64,000 bases of DNA from Arthrobacter sp. Leaf234 (GTDB taxonomy: Bacteria > Actinomycetota > Actinomycetes > Actinomycetales > Micrococcaceae): positions 372,001-436,000 of the forward strand of contig NZ_LMLU01000005.1 in the NCBI RefSeq assembly GCF_001422665.1, given 5' to 3'. The position numbers were made by a program, and so were the translations under genes. This document shows, in pieces, positions 58,403 through 64,000 of the stretch. The notes beneath the pieces are model-generated. The model saw only the letters and a list, made by a program, of their open reading frames with translations. It ran no database searches and had not been told where the DNA came from. The stretch's first letter is position 1. The number at the start of each line of letters is the position of its first letter.

Positions 58403-59443
58403 ATGAGCCTTTCCGTCACGCCCTGCTCCGACCCCGATCTCTGGGACGCCACCGTCGACCGCCTCGGGGGACACCCGCAGCAGCTGTGGGGATGGGGCCG
58501 GACCAAGGCGGCGCACGGGTGGAGCGCGGACCGCGTGCTCGTCGCCGAGGGCGGCGAGGTGATCGCTGCGGCGCAGCTGGTCCTGAAGAAGCTGCCCGGG
58601 CCGCTGCACAGCCTCGCGTACATCCCCCGCGGCCCGGCGACGGCCGAGGGGCGGGGGGTGGAGGTGCTCCAGGCCGTGGCGGGATACGTCCGTGCCGCGC
58701 ACCGGTCCGTGGCGCTCTCCGTGGAACCGGACTGGGACGCCGACAGCGAGGTGATGCGTGGCCTGGCCGCCGCAGGGTGGAGAAGCAGCACCAACACCAT
58801 CCTCATCGGGCGCACCCTGATCCTCGACCTGTCGCACACCGAGGACGAGCTGCTGGCCGGGATGTCCAAGAAGCACCGGCAGTACATCCGGAAGTCCGGG
58901 CGCGAGGGCCTCGACATCCGGCGGGTCGGCCGCGGCGAGCTCGGTGCCTGCCTCGACGTCTACCGGCTGACCGCACAGCGCGCCGGCTTCGGCATCCACG
59001 AGGACTCCTACTATCTGGACATCTTCGACAACCTCGGCGACGCCTCGCCGGTCTACGCCGCGTTCCGGGGCGAGGACGTCGTCGCGTTCCTCTGGATCTC
59101 CGCGAGCTCCACGACGAGCTTCGAGCTCTACGGCGGCATGACCGACGAGGGGGAGCGGCTCCGCGCCAACTATGCGCTCAAGTGGTTCGCCATCCAGGCG
59201 ATGAAGGCCCGCGGCGTGACGCGCTACGACTTCAACGGGCTGCTCAACGACGGCGTATCCCGGTTCAAGATGGGCTGGGCGGGTCACGAGAACCAGCTCG
59301 CGGGCACCTGGGACCTGCCGCTCTCGCCCTTCTACCCCGTCTTCAGCCGCGCCCTGCCGCTCGCCAAGCGAGGCATGCAGGTGGGGCGGCGCCAGGCGTC
59401 CCGAGCGCTGGAAGCGGTCCGCAAGGTCCGGGCCGGGCGCTAG
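58403..59443 (+). CDS. FemABX-family peptidyltransferase
   Basis: Protein of 346 aa with two GNAT-like halves, of the family that adds amino acids from aminoacyl-tRNA to the peptidoglycan stem peptide. Features: QLWGWGRTKAAHGW, GPLHSLAYIPRGP, the KKHRQYIRKSGREGLDIR loop, and the C-terminal ELYGGMTDEGERLRANYALKWFAIQAMKARGVTRYDFNGL with SRFKMGWAGHEN, typical of Fem proteins. No coiled-coil arm is seen. Arthrobacter-type walls have Ala/Ser/Thr interpeptide bridges, so a role in bridge formation is plausible; the residue added is unknown. It has its own leaderless start. Confidence 0.87.
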   Translation: MSLSVTPCSDPDLWDATVDRLGGHPQQLWGWGRTKAAHGWSADRVLVAEGGEVIAAAQLVLKKLPGPLHSLAYIPRGPATAEGRGVEVLQAVAGYVRAAHRSVALSVEPDWDADSEVMRGLAAAGWRSSTNTILIGRTLILDLSHTEDELLAGMSKKHRQYIRKSGREGLDIRRVGRGELGACLDVYRLTAQRAGFGIHEDSYYLDIFDNLGDASPVYAAFRGEDVVAFLWISASSTTSFELYGGMTDEGERLRANYALKWFAIQAMKARGVTRYDFNGLLNDGVSRFKMGWAGHENQLAGTWDLPLSPFYPVFSRALPLAKRGMQVGRRQASRALEAVRKVRAGR

Positions 59444-59543: not shown

Positions 59544-60833
59544 GTGCGTCGACGGGTCTGCATCGTGCTGGTGATCCTTCTGGCATGCGCGGGATGCGGG
59601 TTCTTCCCGCCGGCACCACCGGTGGTGGAGGGCCCCCGGCTGCGGTCGGTCGACGGGGGGCCGGGCTACTACGCCGGGTTCGCCCCGACCCTGCCGACGT
59701 CCCCCGAGTACTTCCCGGTCGCGGTGTGGCTGGAGAGCGTCGTCGAGCCGGGCGATGTGCAGCTCGACCGCCAGATGGGCATCAACACCTATGCAGGGCT
59801 CACCACCAACTCCGACCTGGGACAGGTGGAGCGGGAGGGTTCCTTCGCCCTGACCGGCTGGACGGCATCGGGGGCGTCCGGGTTCATGCTCGCGGACGAA
59901 GCGGACATGTGGGCCGGGGCAGGATCAGCCCCGTGGAGCGGCATGTACCCGGGAGAGGGTGACATCTGCGTGCCTGCATCCTCGTCCTGCGGCTTCACGG
60001 TCCAGGAGTCCCTCGCCGGGACGGCGCCGCCCGGCATGCTGGTGTACACGAACTACGGCAAGGGCGTGACCTTCTGGCAGTCGGACAGCGACGCGGGACG
60101 GTTCGTCAACGAGTTCCAGGACGTGGTGTCGGCGGACAACTACTGGTTCACGGATCCGTTCATCTGCGGCCCGTCGGAAGGGGGCGCAGCGCTCAACGGT
60201 GGCCAGCCCCTTCCCGCCGAGGAATGCCGCAGCGCAGCCAACTACGGCTGGACGATCGACCGGATGCGCGAGCTGGTGGAACCTGAAGGCAGCCGCCCGG
60301 TCTGGGCCCTGGTCGAGGTGGGGCATCCGTTCCAGGAGCCGGCCGGCGGCTCGATCGAGGGGCCGGAGATCAGGGCCGCAGTGTGGAGCAGCATCATCCA
60401 TGGTGCCCGGGGGATCGTGTACTTCAACCACAGCTTCGGTGGCGACTGCACCACCCAGCACGTGCTGAGGGGACCCTGCGGGGACACCGTCCGGCCCTGG
60501 GTCGAGGGCATCAACGCCCAGATCGCACTGCTCGCGCCCGTCCTCAACGCCCCGTTCGCCGACGGGGTCGCTGCAAGCAGCCAGGACGTCGACCTCGCGA
60601 CGAAGCTCCATGACGGCGCCCTCTTCGTCCTGGCGGCCTCCACGGGGGACGGAGCCCAGGAGGTCACGATCGATGTCGCCTGCAGCGGTGCGCTCACCGC
60701 TGTGGTCATCGGTGAGGAACGGAGCGTCCCCGTGACGGACGGCGCGATCCGCGACGTCTTCACCGATGCCAACGCCGTACACCTCTACGAGCTCGTGGGC
60801 GGAGATACCTGCGGCCTCGGCGACGGATCATGA
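59544..60833 (+). CDS. secreted lipoprotein, possibly TIM-barrel glycoside-hydrolase-like
   Basis: Exported protein of 429 aa with a lipoprotein-type signal (RRVCIVLVILLACAGC). I do not recognise the family. The body reads like a glycoside-hydrolase TIM barrel: PEYFPVAVWLES, MGINTYAGL, GFMLADEADMW, PGMLVYTNYGKG, VSADNYWFTDPF, ARGIVYFNHSFGG, followed by a small beta domain at the end. Conserved-looking acidic residues (DEADMW, SADNYW) could be catalytic, which is inference. GTG 59544 follows GGGAGG. It lies between the FemX-like gene and a polysaccharide glycosyltransferase, suggesting an envelope glycan role. Confidence 0.65.
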   Translation: MRRRVCIVLVILLACAGCGFFPPAPPVVEGPRLRSVDGGPGYYAGFAPTLPTSPEYFPVAVWLESVVEPGDVQLDRQMGINTYAGLTTNSDLGQVEREGSFALTGWTASGASGFMLADEADMWAGAGSAPWSGMYPGEGDICVPASSSCGFTVQESLAGTAPPGMLVYTNYGKGVTFWQSDSDAGRFVNEFQDVVSADNYWFTDPFICGPSEGGAALNGGQPLPAEECRSAANYGWTIDRMRELVEPEGSRPVWALVEVGHPFQEPAGGSIEGPEIRAAVWSSIIHGARGIVYFNHSFGGDCTTQHVLRGPCGDTVRPWVEGINAQIALLAPVLNAPFADGVAASSQDVDLATKLHDGALFVLAASTGDGAQEVTIDVACSGALTAVVIGEERSVPVTDGAIRDVFTDANAVHLYELVGGDTCGLGDGS

Positions 60834-60876: not shown

Positions 60877-60945
60877 TGGTTCCACTTCAGGTAGTAGATG
60901 ACCGGACCGATTCTGGGGGTCTGTCCTCTTCACCAAGGGGCCGGA

Positions 60946-63627
60946 ATGCAGTGTGTGACGTTGGGTGGCGTTCGGATCGACCTGTTGGACACGGAGGACG
61001 CCGTCCGGCGCATCGCCTCCCATGCGCACAACACTCCCGCTGATCTGATCCAGGGGCCCCTGGCGGTCATCTCGGCCAATCTCGACCATATCGCCCATTT
61101 CGGGACGGAGGGGCGGTGGTTCGACACCCTCGATCTGTCCCGGGACGACGGACCCTCGAACACCCAGTGGCTGACACTCGTCGACGGCGCACCGCTCGCA
61201 GCCGAGGCCGAGCGCCTGACCGGACGGTCGTGGCCCCGCCTCGCCGGGAGTGACCTGATCGGTCCGCTGCTGGACCAGGCCGAGGCCGACGGGACGACCG
61301 TCGGTTTCCTCGGAGGGTCGGCACTGATCCAGCGACTCCTGTCCCGGACCCTCACCAGGACACGCCCCGATCTGGTCATCGCCGGCATGTGGTCGCCGGA
61401 CCGCGCCGTCCTCGCCGACCCGGCCGCGTCACGCGATCTCGCGCAGTCGATCCGGGAGGCGCAGGTGCAACTGCTCGTCGTCGGGCTGGGCAAGCCGCGC
61501 CAGGAACTGTGGATCGCGGAGTACGGACAGCTCACCGGCGCCAACGTCCTGCTGGCCTTCGGTGCCGTCGTGGATTTCCTGGCGGGCGGCATCAGACGGG
61601 CGCCGCGCTGGGCGAGCTCGAGGGGCCTGGAATGGGCATGGAGGCTCGCCCTCGAACCCCGACGCCTCGCGCGTCGGTACCTCATCGACGATCCTCCCAG
61701 CTACTTCAGGATGCGCCGCGACAGTTTCGTGCCCGAGCCCACTCCCCATGCGACAGTTGCCGCTGTCCCCGTGTCCCCGCTGATCGGCGGCACTCCGGAC
61801 GGCTCCTTCGCGCCTGCCGGGGAGGCGGTCGACGTCGTCGTCCAGGTGGTGACCTACAACAGTGCGGAGCAGCTCGAGGGCCTCATGGCGAGCCTGCGCC
61901 GCGAAGCGCGGCTCCTCCGGCTGCGGGTCGTGGTCGCCGACAACGACTCGACGGACGGGACCCTGGCCGTGCTCGCCGCGTACCCCGATGTCATCGCGCT
62001 CCCGACCGGTGGGAACCTCGGATACGCGACAGGCATCAACGCTGCGATGCGAGTGCCGGGCGACAGCGCGGCGGTCCTCGTCCTGAACCCGGACCTGACG
62101 GTGGGACCGGGAGCCATCAGCAGCCTGTATGCGCGGATGGTGCGGTCCGGGGCGGGCATCGTCGCACCCCTGCTGCTCGACGACGACGGAGAGATCTACC
62201 CGTCACTCCGCCGTGAACCATCGATCGCCCGCGCGCTGGGTGATGCTCTGTTGGGCAGCCGGGTCCGGGGCAGGCCGGGCCGGACGGCCGAGATCGACGC
62301 CGAGCCGGAGAGCTACCGTCACCCGCACCGCATCGACTGGGCGACCGGGGCGGCACTCCTCGTCCGGTCCGACCTGGCCTCGCAGCTCGGCGACTGGGAC
62401 GATCGTTTCTTCCTCTACTCGGAAGAGGTGGACTACTGCAGGAGGGCCCGAGCCTCGGGAGCCGCAGTGTGGTTCGAACCTGCTGCCCGGATGACGCACT
62501 CCCGCGGCGGATCCGGGGCGTCGCCGGAATTGAATGCACTGCTGGCGGTCAACCGGATCAGGTACATCCGCAAGCACCATCCGCCGCTGTACGCGGCGGT
62601 GTTCAGGGCGGTGGTGGTGCTCTCGGAGATGGTGCGCGTCACCCTCCCGGCCCACCGCGGCGTCCTCGCGATCGTCATCGACGAACAAGGCTGGGATCTT
62701 CTGCCCGGACCGACGGGCTCGAGGCAGGACGCCCGGTCTGCTGACTTCCCCCGGGGGTCGGTCATCATCCCCGCCCACAACGAGGAAGCGGTCCTGGCCC
62801 GGACGCTGGCGCCGCTGGCGCCGCTCGCGGCCGCCGGTCGGATCGAGCTCATCGTGTCCTGCAACGGCTGCACGGATGGGACCGTGGGGATCGCGCGCAG
62901 CTTCGAGGGTGTGCGGGTGACGGAGGTCCCGGTCGCCTCCAAGACCGCTGCTCTGAATTCTGCCGACGAGGTGGCCACGGTATGGCCCCGCATCTACCTC
63001 GACGCGGACATCGAGGTCACCCCGGCCGCTCTGGGCCTGGTCCTCGATCGATTGACGACCGGGGAGGCCGTGGCAGCCCGACCGACCTTCCGCTACGACT
63101 CCTCCGGCGCGAGCTTTCCCGTCAGGGCGTATTTCCGGGCCCGCCAGCGGATCCCGGCTTTCAGCAAGGCGCTGTGGGGAGCCGGTGTCTACGGGGTGAG
63201 CGAGACAGGTCATGCTCGCTTCGGGACCTTTCCGGCCGTGACGGCCGACGACCTCCTGATCGACAATCTCTTCGGTGCCTGCGAGAAAGCAGTCGTCAAC
63301 GGACCGCCGGTGCGGGTCAGGACGCCACGCACAGCCTCGACCCTGCTCGCCGTCCTGACGAGGGTGCACCGCGGTAACAGTGAACTCGCCCATCAGGACC
63401 TCCACGACCGTGGCAAGCGGGCGGACGACGCCGTGTCCTCGCCAGGGCGCACCCTGTTCGCTCTCGTGACATCGGTCCGCGGACCCGTCAGCGCACTCGA
63501 CACCGCAGCCTACGTCGCATTCACGACGGTAGCCCGGGCCCAGGTGCTGGTACGGAGCGCGGCCCGACCCGCACGAGGAGGAAGGCAGGGGGCATGGGAG
63601 CGGGACGAGAGCAGCAGGCGACGGTAG
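60946..63627 (+). CDS. three-domain glycosyltransferase: WecG/TagA-type plus two GT2 domains
   Basis: One uninterrupted frame of 893 aa holds three transferase domains. Residues about 5-250: WecG/TagA/CpsF family (GGVRIDLLDTEDA, ISANLDHIA, DGAPLAAEAERLTGR, VGLGKPRQELWI, GAVVDFLAGGIRRAPRW). About 295-590: GT2 of rhamnosyltransferase type (VVTYNS, VADNDSTDGT, NLGYATGINAAM, LNPDL, YSEEVDYCRRA). About 605-850: a second, different GT2 (VIIPAHNEEAVL, SCNGCTDGT, YLDADIEV). It probably assembles successive sugars on a lipid-linked repeat unit. ATG 60946 has AAGGGG upstream; ATG 60898 adds 16 residues. The next gene overlaps its end by 34 nt. Confidence 0.88.
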   Translation: MQCVTLGGVRIDLLDTEDAVRRIASHAHNTPADLIQGPLAVISANLDHIAHFGTEGRWFDTLDLSRDDGPSNTQWLTLVDGAPLAAEAERLTGRSWPRLAGSDLIGPLLDQAEADGTTVGFLGGSALIQRLLSRTLTRTRPDLVIAGMWSPDRAVLADPAASRDLAQSIREAQVQLLVVGLGKPRQELWIAEYGQLTGANVLLAFGAVVDFLAGGIRRAPRWASSRGLEWAWRLALEPRRLARRYLIDDPPSYFRMRRDSFVPEPTPHATVAAVPVSPLIGGTPDGSFAPAGEAVDVVVQVVTYNSAEQLEGLMASLRREARLLRLRVVVADNDSTDGTLAVLAAYPDVIALPTGGNLGYATGINAAMRVPGDSAAVLVLNPDLTVGPGAISSLYARMVRSGAGIVAPLLLDDDGEIYPSLRREPSIARALGDALLGSRVRGRPGRTAEIDAEPESYRHPHRIDWATGAALLVRSDLASQLGDWDDRFFLYSEEVDYCRRARASGAAVWFEPAARMTHSRGGSGASPELNALLAVNRIRYIRKHHPPLYAAVFRAVVVLSEMVRVTLPAHRGVLAIVIDEQGWDLLPGPTGSRQDARSADFPRGSVIIPAHNEEAVLARTLAPLAPLAAAGRIELIVSCNGCTDGTVGIARSFEGVRVTEVPVASKTAALNSADEVATVWPRIYLDADIEVTPAALGLVLDRLTTGEAVAARPTFRYDSSGASFPVRAYFRARQRIPAFSKALWGAGVYGVSETGHARFGTFPAVTADDLLIDNLFGACEKAVVNGPPVRVRTPRTASTLLAVLTRVHRGNSELAHQDLHDRGKRADDAVSSPGRTLFALVTSVRGPVSALDTAAYVAFTTVARAQVLVRSAARPARGGRQGAWERDESSRRR

Positions 63628-64000
63628 GACCAGCAACCGGTGACGCTGTCACACGACCGGGCGGTCCCGACCGCCCGGTCCCGCTGCTCCTGCGGATCTT
63701 CGCCTTCAGCGTCTTCTTCTTCCCCTCGAGCATGGTGATCGGCCCCCTTGGCGCTGTCGGCACCGTTCCGATGATCCTCGGCGGACTCCTCCTCGCGCTC
63801 TGGTTCGCCTCCGCGGTGTTCGGTCTCCACGACCCCTTGGCCGCCCGACATCCGGCGCGCCTGGCCGTCGGGGTGCTCCTGCTGGCGACCTTCGCCTCCT
63901 ACGTCGCCCTGTACTCGGGATGGTCCGGCACCAGTACCGTCGCCGGCCGGGCATCCGCCGATCGCTGGCTCATCCTGCTGCTGGTGAGCGCGGGGATCGT
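63594..64000 (+). CDS. O-antigen-ligase/polymerase-like membrane protein (3' end outside window)
   Basis: The frame is open to the right edge: 135 codons visible. A polar N terminus of 33 residues (MGAGREQQATVGPATGD...) is followed by at least three membrane helices: IFAFSVFFFPSSMVIGPLG, VPMILGGLLLALWFASAV and LAVGVLLLATFASYVALYSG, then WLILLLVSAG. The start pattern resembles O-antigen ligase/Wzy-type polymerases. ATG 63594 lies inside the preceding gene and has a strong AGGAGGAAGG about 10 nt upstream. With the upstream fusion transferase it suggests a Wzy-type polysaccharide locus. Confidence 0.65.
   Translation, partial: MGAGREQQATVGPATGDAVTRPGGPDRPVPLLLRIFAFSVFFFPSSMVIGPLGAVGTVPMILGGLLLALWFASAVFGLHDPLAARHPARLAVGVLLLATFASYVALYSGWSGTSTVAGRASADRWLILLLVSAGI

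Follow-up and report, generated by a model that had tools for sequence, protein, structure and literature searches.

TagA, a GT26 glycosyltransferase, is described as acting second, on GlcNAc-PP-undecaprenyl (PMC6493773). Another GT26 enzyme, GumM (263 aa), also acts second according to PMC4443731, in xanthan synthesis, on Glc-PP-undecaprenyl after GumD. EpsA is assigned in PMC7484181 to the PHPT-started Wzx/Wzy EPS pathway of Myxococcus xanthus. Each of these is a separate, unfused protein (EpsA model length 265). Proteins with several transferase domains are already known, WsaE and K4CP among them. The chondroitin polymerase K4CP and the heparosan synthase 2 of P. multocida carry two GT2 domains per chain, lack a GT26 domain and are processive. 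WsaE of the Geobacillus S-layer glycan is described in PMC2943079 as trifunctional, with two transferase domains that form different linkages and a methyltransferase as its third domain, in an ABC-transporter pathway. The protein considered here shares the pair of GT2 domains with K4CP and heparosan synthase 2, but all three of its domains are transferases: one of the WecG/TagA/CpsF type is joined to two of the GT2 type. In the portions of the open-access literature that were covered, as distinct from subscription journals and preprints, no description of such a triple fusion was found, and the term "undescribed" in the original prediction stands as far as that literature goes.

The window, meaning the whole stretch of 64,000 nucleotides analyzed, carries the fusion as one uninterrupted frame of 893 codons (893 aa) without an internal stop in its translation. 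AAGGGG precedes the start at 60946, and an in-frame upstream ATG at 60898 would give an alternative product of 909 aa; both starts seem feasible. The features discussed below are the following.

58403..59443, + strand: FemAB-family gene (PF02388, 110.6 bits), taken as the last left-flank gene before the island
59544..60833, + strand: gene of a predicted 429-aa lipoprotein that recurs next to the fusion
60946..63627, + strand: triple glycosyltransferase fusion, 893 aa (909 aa from the start at 60898)
60946..61749, + strand: WecG/TagA/CpsF (GT26) part, residues 1-268, with a C-terminal appendage that bears R233 and R240
61750..62730, + strand: GT2a part, about residues 269-595, with NPD 381-383 and EEVD 493-496
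62731..63624, + strand: GT2b part, about residues 596-893, with DAD 686-688 and DD 768-769
63595..63618, + strand: conserved C-terminal tail W884-R891 (WxRDxSxR), a candidate gating-loop equivalent
63594..64000, + strand, continuing to G000:C5:436,973: Wzy_C polymerase/ligase gene (PF04932, 53.3 bits), overlapping the fusion by 34 bp

A Pfam search of the 893-aa protein matched all three parts to their models. PF03808 covers residues 76-245 (143.1 bits against a cut-off of 27.4), while PF00535 and PF13641 each match two stretches (107 and 51.1 bits, respectively). In NCBIfam, the WecG part matches TIGR00696 (98.1 bits, cut-off 69). The N-terminal domain belongs to WecG/TagA/CpsF (GT26) by its PF03808 profile, its TagA fold and its catalytic residues. 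GT2 membership is found twice, each time through PF00535/PF13641 and a DXD-type motif: the NPD of LNPDL (residues 380-384) in GT2a and the DAD of DADIEV (686-691) in GT2b. Counted over all 121 fusions, of which 79 form alignment A1, the WecG residues S43, N45, D80, R98, Q186, E187, R233 and R240 are kept in 118-121, with D80 present in 120 and R240 in every one. The GT2a NPD and the E, E and D of EEVD are likewise kept in 118-121 of 121, and the GT2b DAD and DD in 121/121. Close to the DXD-type site of GT2a, two positions vary (S335 in 80/121, D337 in 93/121). Translation, Pfam matches and conserved residues thus confirm the single frame with one WecG/TagA-type domain and two differing GT2 domains that had been proposed. 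The domain packing that the original prediction had singled out for modeling is confident: AlphaFold2 packs the three domains of the whole protein with a pTM of 0.90, a value that does not amount to a demonstration of intermediate hand-over.

TagA/TarA (GT26; PDB 7mpk and 5wb4) and the N-terminal domain have the fold, the active-site residues and the C-terminal appendage in common. Residues T37, N39, D65, R83, Q167, E168, R214 and R221, as given for TagA in PMC6493773, correspond in that order to S43, N45, D80, R98, Q186, E187, R233 and R240 of the fusion, with the one substitution, T37 to S43, paired by motif. The curated TagA/TarA equivalog nevertheless does not include the WecG part, which scores 40.2 bits with TarA (NF041710) against a cut-off of 350. 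Its best NCBIfam match is EPS_EpsA (NF041872), a likeness shared with the unfused EpsA of Myxococcus xanthus EPS at 105.7 bits, far under the 500-bit equivalog cut-off. The relatives of the fusion differ from TagA further in that their neighbouring initiator is of another family and a ManNAc epimerase is often absent.

The fold matches of GT2a are dominated by GalNAc-transferases, WrtF and GlfT2, which tells of a GT-A fold and not of the donor. GT2b aligns almost full length with some hyaluronan and cellulose synthases, its tail lying about at their gating loop. The structural alignment extends up to GT2b model residue 298 in three cases: with 8smp_A, which is UDP-bound XlHAS1 with its gating loop inserted (ending at its residue 498), with 4p00_A, BcsA in complex with c-di-GMP and UDP (ending at 511), and with 9b8v_E, the BcsA of E. 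coli (ending at 625). Alignments of the other HAS rows end at GT2b residue 276-282 and those of the other BcsA rows at 278-288. In XlHAS1 the gating loop spans 485-503 with WGTSGRK/R at 491-497, and the substitutions W491A and R496A are reported in PMC11750622 to abolish activity. The GT2b alignment, known as ranges and not as residue pairs, ends at XlHAS1 498, next to this motif, and the tail itself is modeled at low confidence (pLDDT about 57-61). The WxRDxSxR pattern occurs in 118/121 fusions, every match within the 121 lying in the final 80 residues, and at the domain junction of 21/21 fusions of GT2b-WecG build. It is also found in 29 of the 35 members of A2 and, among the GT2b rows taken from the loci fetched (several phyla), in 44 of 49, the exact pattern being missing in L031, L043, L044, L051 and L054. 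By its modeled position, the tail may be the equivalent of the hyaluronan/cellulose synthase gating loop. Those synthases possess a transmembrane channel, whereas the 298 residues of GT2b, taken up by the catalytic part, the tail and three more helices, are too few for one. If the tail is indeed a gating loop, such a loop could be studied without a membrane channel.

The fusion sits in a polysaccharide island of about 18 kb between glpX-femX and manA (G000:C5:430344-449820). As anticipated, the overlapping gene that starts at 63594 is of the ligase/polymerase type, and the locus extends past 64 kb, with polysaccharide genes up to about G000:C5:449,770. The Wzy gene is followed by a gene for a PCP-like protein without a Pfam match, in which hydrophobic segments near both ends were recognized by eye. 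The opposite strand then encodes, in sequence, a DUF6492 protein, a pair of GT4-type transferases, Wzx, a DegT aminotransferase, one more GT4-type transferase, an acetyltransferase of the NeuD type (169.5 bits, cut-off 160.8), another DegT protein, an SDR and an oxidoreductase of the Gfo/Idh/MocA type. The last resembles UDP-GlcNAc 3-dehydrogenase at 146.6 bits, below the cut-off of 450, and a further hexapeptide acetyltransferase gene is divergent from it. An LCP gene lies beyond manA. The flippase gene sought past 64 kb is present as Wzx (PF13440, 180.6 bits), and its pairing with Wzy points to a Wzx/Wzy-dependent locus. This set of genes suggests that the glycan may contain a 2,3-diamino sugar. 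In the four loci read over their whole length (G201, G215, G239 and G250), the fusion is accompanied by PGT, Gfo/Idh, DegT, NeuD/PglD and Wzx.

The 429-aa lipoprotein encoded upstream of the fusion matched nothing in Pfam or NCBIfam. At E <= 1e-8 it recurs beside the fusion or its separate genes in ten of the 13 loci, with copies 51-55% identical in six and 29-31% identical in four more. Inspection by eye makes a glycoside hydrolase possible, and one might guess at a hydrolase that perhaps trims the glycan.

The glpX-manA distance is 19,475 bp here versus 1,112-4,308 bp in 18/18 other genomes examined (16 of 34 from the same genus and two from the family; the glpX match of G012 is partial). 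Base composition was considered as a sign of recent foreign DNA and discarded, with no anomaly in the island (G+C 0.685 versus 0.692-0.693 for the window); the insertion is argued from gene order alone. In G239 and G303, glpX and manA stand side by side, and the fusion locus is at another site.

A protein search retrieved 850 relatives, the best 120 of which have lengths of 814-966 aa and query coverages of 87-100%, and contain both PF03808 and PF00535. Named sources among the relatives listed are Arthrobacter, Paenarthrobacter, Paeniglutamicibacter, Pseudarthrobacter, Citricoccus, Glutamicibacter and other Micrococcaceae, with a few from Microlunatus, Raineyella and Microbacterium; database names, where given, read "WecB/TagA/CpsF family" protein or similar. 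An assembly error or frameshift, which homologues consistently split in three would have indicated, is ruled out by the full or nearly full length of these 120 among the 850. The same architecture, sought in other genomes, recurs across the Arthrobacter group and Micrococcaceae, where it is frequent and not rare as had been implied. These comparisons of sequence confirm a three-transferase fusion that is real, conserved and widespread.

Among 297 genomes from the order of the window, 54 match at E <= 1e-30. Eight contain the whole protein as one match, all in the window's family (f1); a ninth genome of f1 (G118) holds the whole protein in two frames, and the remaining 45 have single parts only. 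No match is recorded for fifteen further f1 genomes, and a full-length match is absent from 34/34 other genomes of the window's genus. Within the best 13 named loci (L026-L038), whose counts are not independent of the genome counts because L029, L037 and L038 are contigs of G058, G312 and G173, respectively, the triple fusion occupies one frame in ten. The other three are L034, with WecG-GT2a and GT2b in separate frames; L036, with GT2a-GT2b and no WecG inside the 21.8 kb fetched; and L037 (Okibacterium), with three genes in the fusion order WecG, GT2a, GT2b. The Okibacterium genes overlap by four bases (ATGA) and then by one base, and each protein is 52-55% identical to the matching part of the window protein. 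An identical split is seen in L034:9836-12597 and L165:15767-18528 (G118), with WecG-GT2a of 642 aa and GT2b of 294 aa in frames that overlap by 52 bp; it may be either an inherited fission or a frameshift site. The split frames in L034 and L165 and the missing WecG in L036 imply that fusion is not essential.

Genes around the fusion bear on the step at which it acts. In 12 of 13 genomes, the fusion or its parts have a gene for a PF02397 polyprenyl-phosphate sugar-1-phosphate transferase at a distance of 0.13-15.8 kb. This distance is 9.0-15.8 kb for the fusion in 8/8 other fusion genomes, including G118 with its two frames, and 0.13-3.9 kb where the genes are separate, in 4/4. This initiator would act first, contrary to the original prediction that the fusion catalyzes the first biosynthetic step. 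A PF02350 epimerase, for UDP-ManNAc supply, is found in the window's genome and is absent from 4/9 fusion genomes; its presence does not track the fusion (5/9 genomes with versus 24/41 without). Teichuronic acid synthesis, mentioned in the original prediction, is possible but unsupported: those 4/9 fusion genomes lack the epimerase, and a UDP-sugar 6-dehydrogenase gene was seen less than 5 kb from the fusion in one of nine genomes (G173), lying on other contigs in three drafts; a PF00984 dehydrogenase occurs in 13/13 genomes searched. A teichuronic-like polymer with diamino-uronic sugars is described from Streptomyces (PMC13274773). Given an initiator nearby and an epimerase often missing, the fusion is most likely an enzyme of the GumM position followed by two GT2 steps, and not a TagA-type linker enzyme. 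As described in PMC4443731, GumM is a GT26 enzyme in a pathway begun by a sugar-1-phosphate transferase, as would hold for the fusion, and the two are likened by this description and not by sequence; GumM stands alone, while the fusion has two further domains.

We therefore regard the fusion as probably a membrane-surface enzyme that performs three successive sugar transfers in building the repeat unit of a surface polysaccharide made by the Wzx/Wzy route. A WbaP/WcaJ-type enzyme would first load sugar-1-phosphate onto undecaprenyl phosphate. The WecG-like domain would then add the second sugar, with D80 as base and R240 of the appendage acting on the leaving group, and GT2a and GT2b would add the following two in either order. 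The product would be flipped by Wzx and polymerized by Wzy with the PCP-like protein, all three encoded in the island. By keeping its three active sites on a single patch of membrane, the fusion may allow short lipid-linked intermediates to be handed on. The predicted addition of successive sugars to a lipid-linked acceptor is probably correct in light of the three complete conserved domains, the adjoining Wzy and the Wzx in the locus. Against this explanation, the window's own genome has its sole PF02397 gene in another EPS locus at a distance of 74 kb (G000:C5:509836-510402, L151); its initiator could be shared with that locus or be a PF00953 protein, two of which were found in this genome, the one searched for that family.

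That distant PF02397 gene is also what a TagA-like linkage-unit enzyme would lead one to expect. Such an enzyme would transfer ManNAc onto GlcNAc-PP-undecaprenyl, the TagO/WecA product, and its GT2 domains would finish a cell-wall polymer linker. The GT26 fold with catalytic residues matching TagA, the PF02350 epimerase and the two PF00953 proteins of the window's genome, and the LCP gene beyond manA are all consistent with it. The nearby initiator in 12/13 genomes, the independence of the epimerase from the fusion and a TarA score under that of EpsA nevertheless make this reading unlikely.

Fused transferases with inactive domains exist, and one or two domains of the fusion might be active with the rest structural or acceptor-binding. 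With the catalytic residues of all three kept in 118-121/121 fusions, and each part retained as a separate gene in Okibacterium, we consider this improbable. Least convincing is a processive two-domain polymerase formed by GT2a and GT2b, comparable to the chondroitin synthase K4CP or to heparosan synthase, with the WecG product as primer. K4CP and PmHS2 head the Foldseek list obtained with the whole model, and GT2b resembles the catalytic parts of HAS/BcsA, but superposing the model on K4CP and PmHS2 gives an rmsd of 16-20 A over a long alignment, indicating that single domains match and not the arrangement. The locus moreover has its own Wzy and Wzx, not an expected need of a processive synthase, and a polymerase of this kind is very improbable. 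Under the favoured reading of three successive transfers, the fused form and the overlapping separate genes point to three cooperating enzymes across a large group of Actinomycetota. The order of transferases in Wzx/Wzy pathways is often obscure, and the order of these three is directly testable. One polypeptide with three activities could also serve as a tool for making lipid-linked oligosaccharides.

Related domains are joined in other ways elsewhere. PGT, GT2b and WecG are adjacent in L005, L130, L132, L134 and L136, and a GT2b-WecG fusion, opposite in order, is encoded in G051 (L008), with 21 relatives of like build (P0122-P0142). The WecG parts of these fusions are only 32-37% identical to that of the window and fall in another clade, so they look like an independent fusion of like partner kinds in reversed order. 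The WecG and GT2a trees (50/113 and 59/124 rows) were made quickly with FastTree and show long branches; the GT2b tree (76/129 rows) was built more carefully. P0143 combines a GT2b-like domain with a GT4-type domain. From such recurrent fusions, joining adjacent steps looks like a habit of these polysaccharide loci. A more ambitious reading is a colinear assembly line with active sites in order of use, GT2b as a channel-less relative of HAS/cellulose synthase, the free tail as gating loop, and fusions of like partners, arisen at least twice in opposite orders, recording direct hand-over of a short lipid-linked glycan; we consider it possible but rather doubtful.

Other pairings were noted in the same searches. 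GT2 pairs outside Actinomycetota (L039, L040, L047, L049, L052 and L053) were rejected as the same pair, with a GT2a partner just 27-32% identical. L051:2477-4354 encodes a GT2-GT2 fusion in reversed order; the 87 relatives listed include at least 19 with >=92% coverage, from Pengzhenrongella, Georgenia and others. The first half of the L051 protein still has WGRD where the two domains join; its second half is 29-30% identical to GT2a, an equally weak match, and was not accepted as a GT2a equivalent. In P0200 (740 aa) and P0204 (761 aa), a Wzy_C polymerase domain is joined to a WecG domain. P0262, P0263, P0267 and P0270 (Microbacterium where named) combine GT2 domains with a PF11316 putative rhamnosyl transferase.
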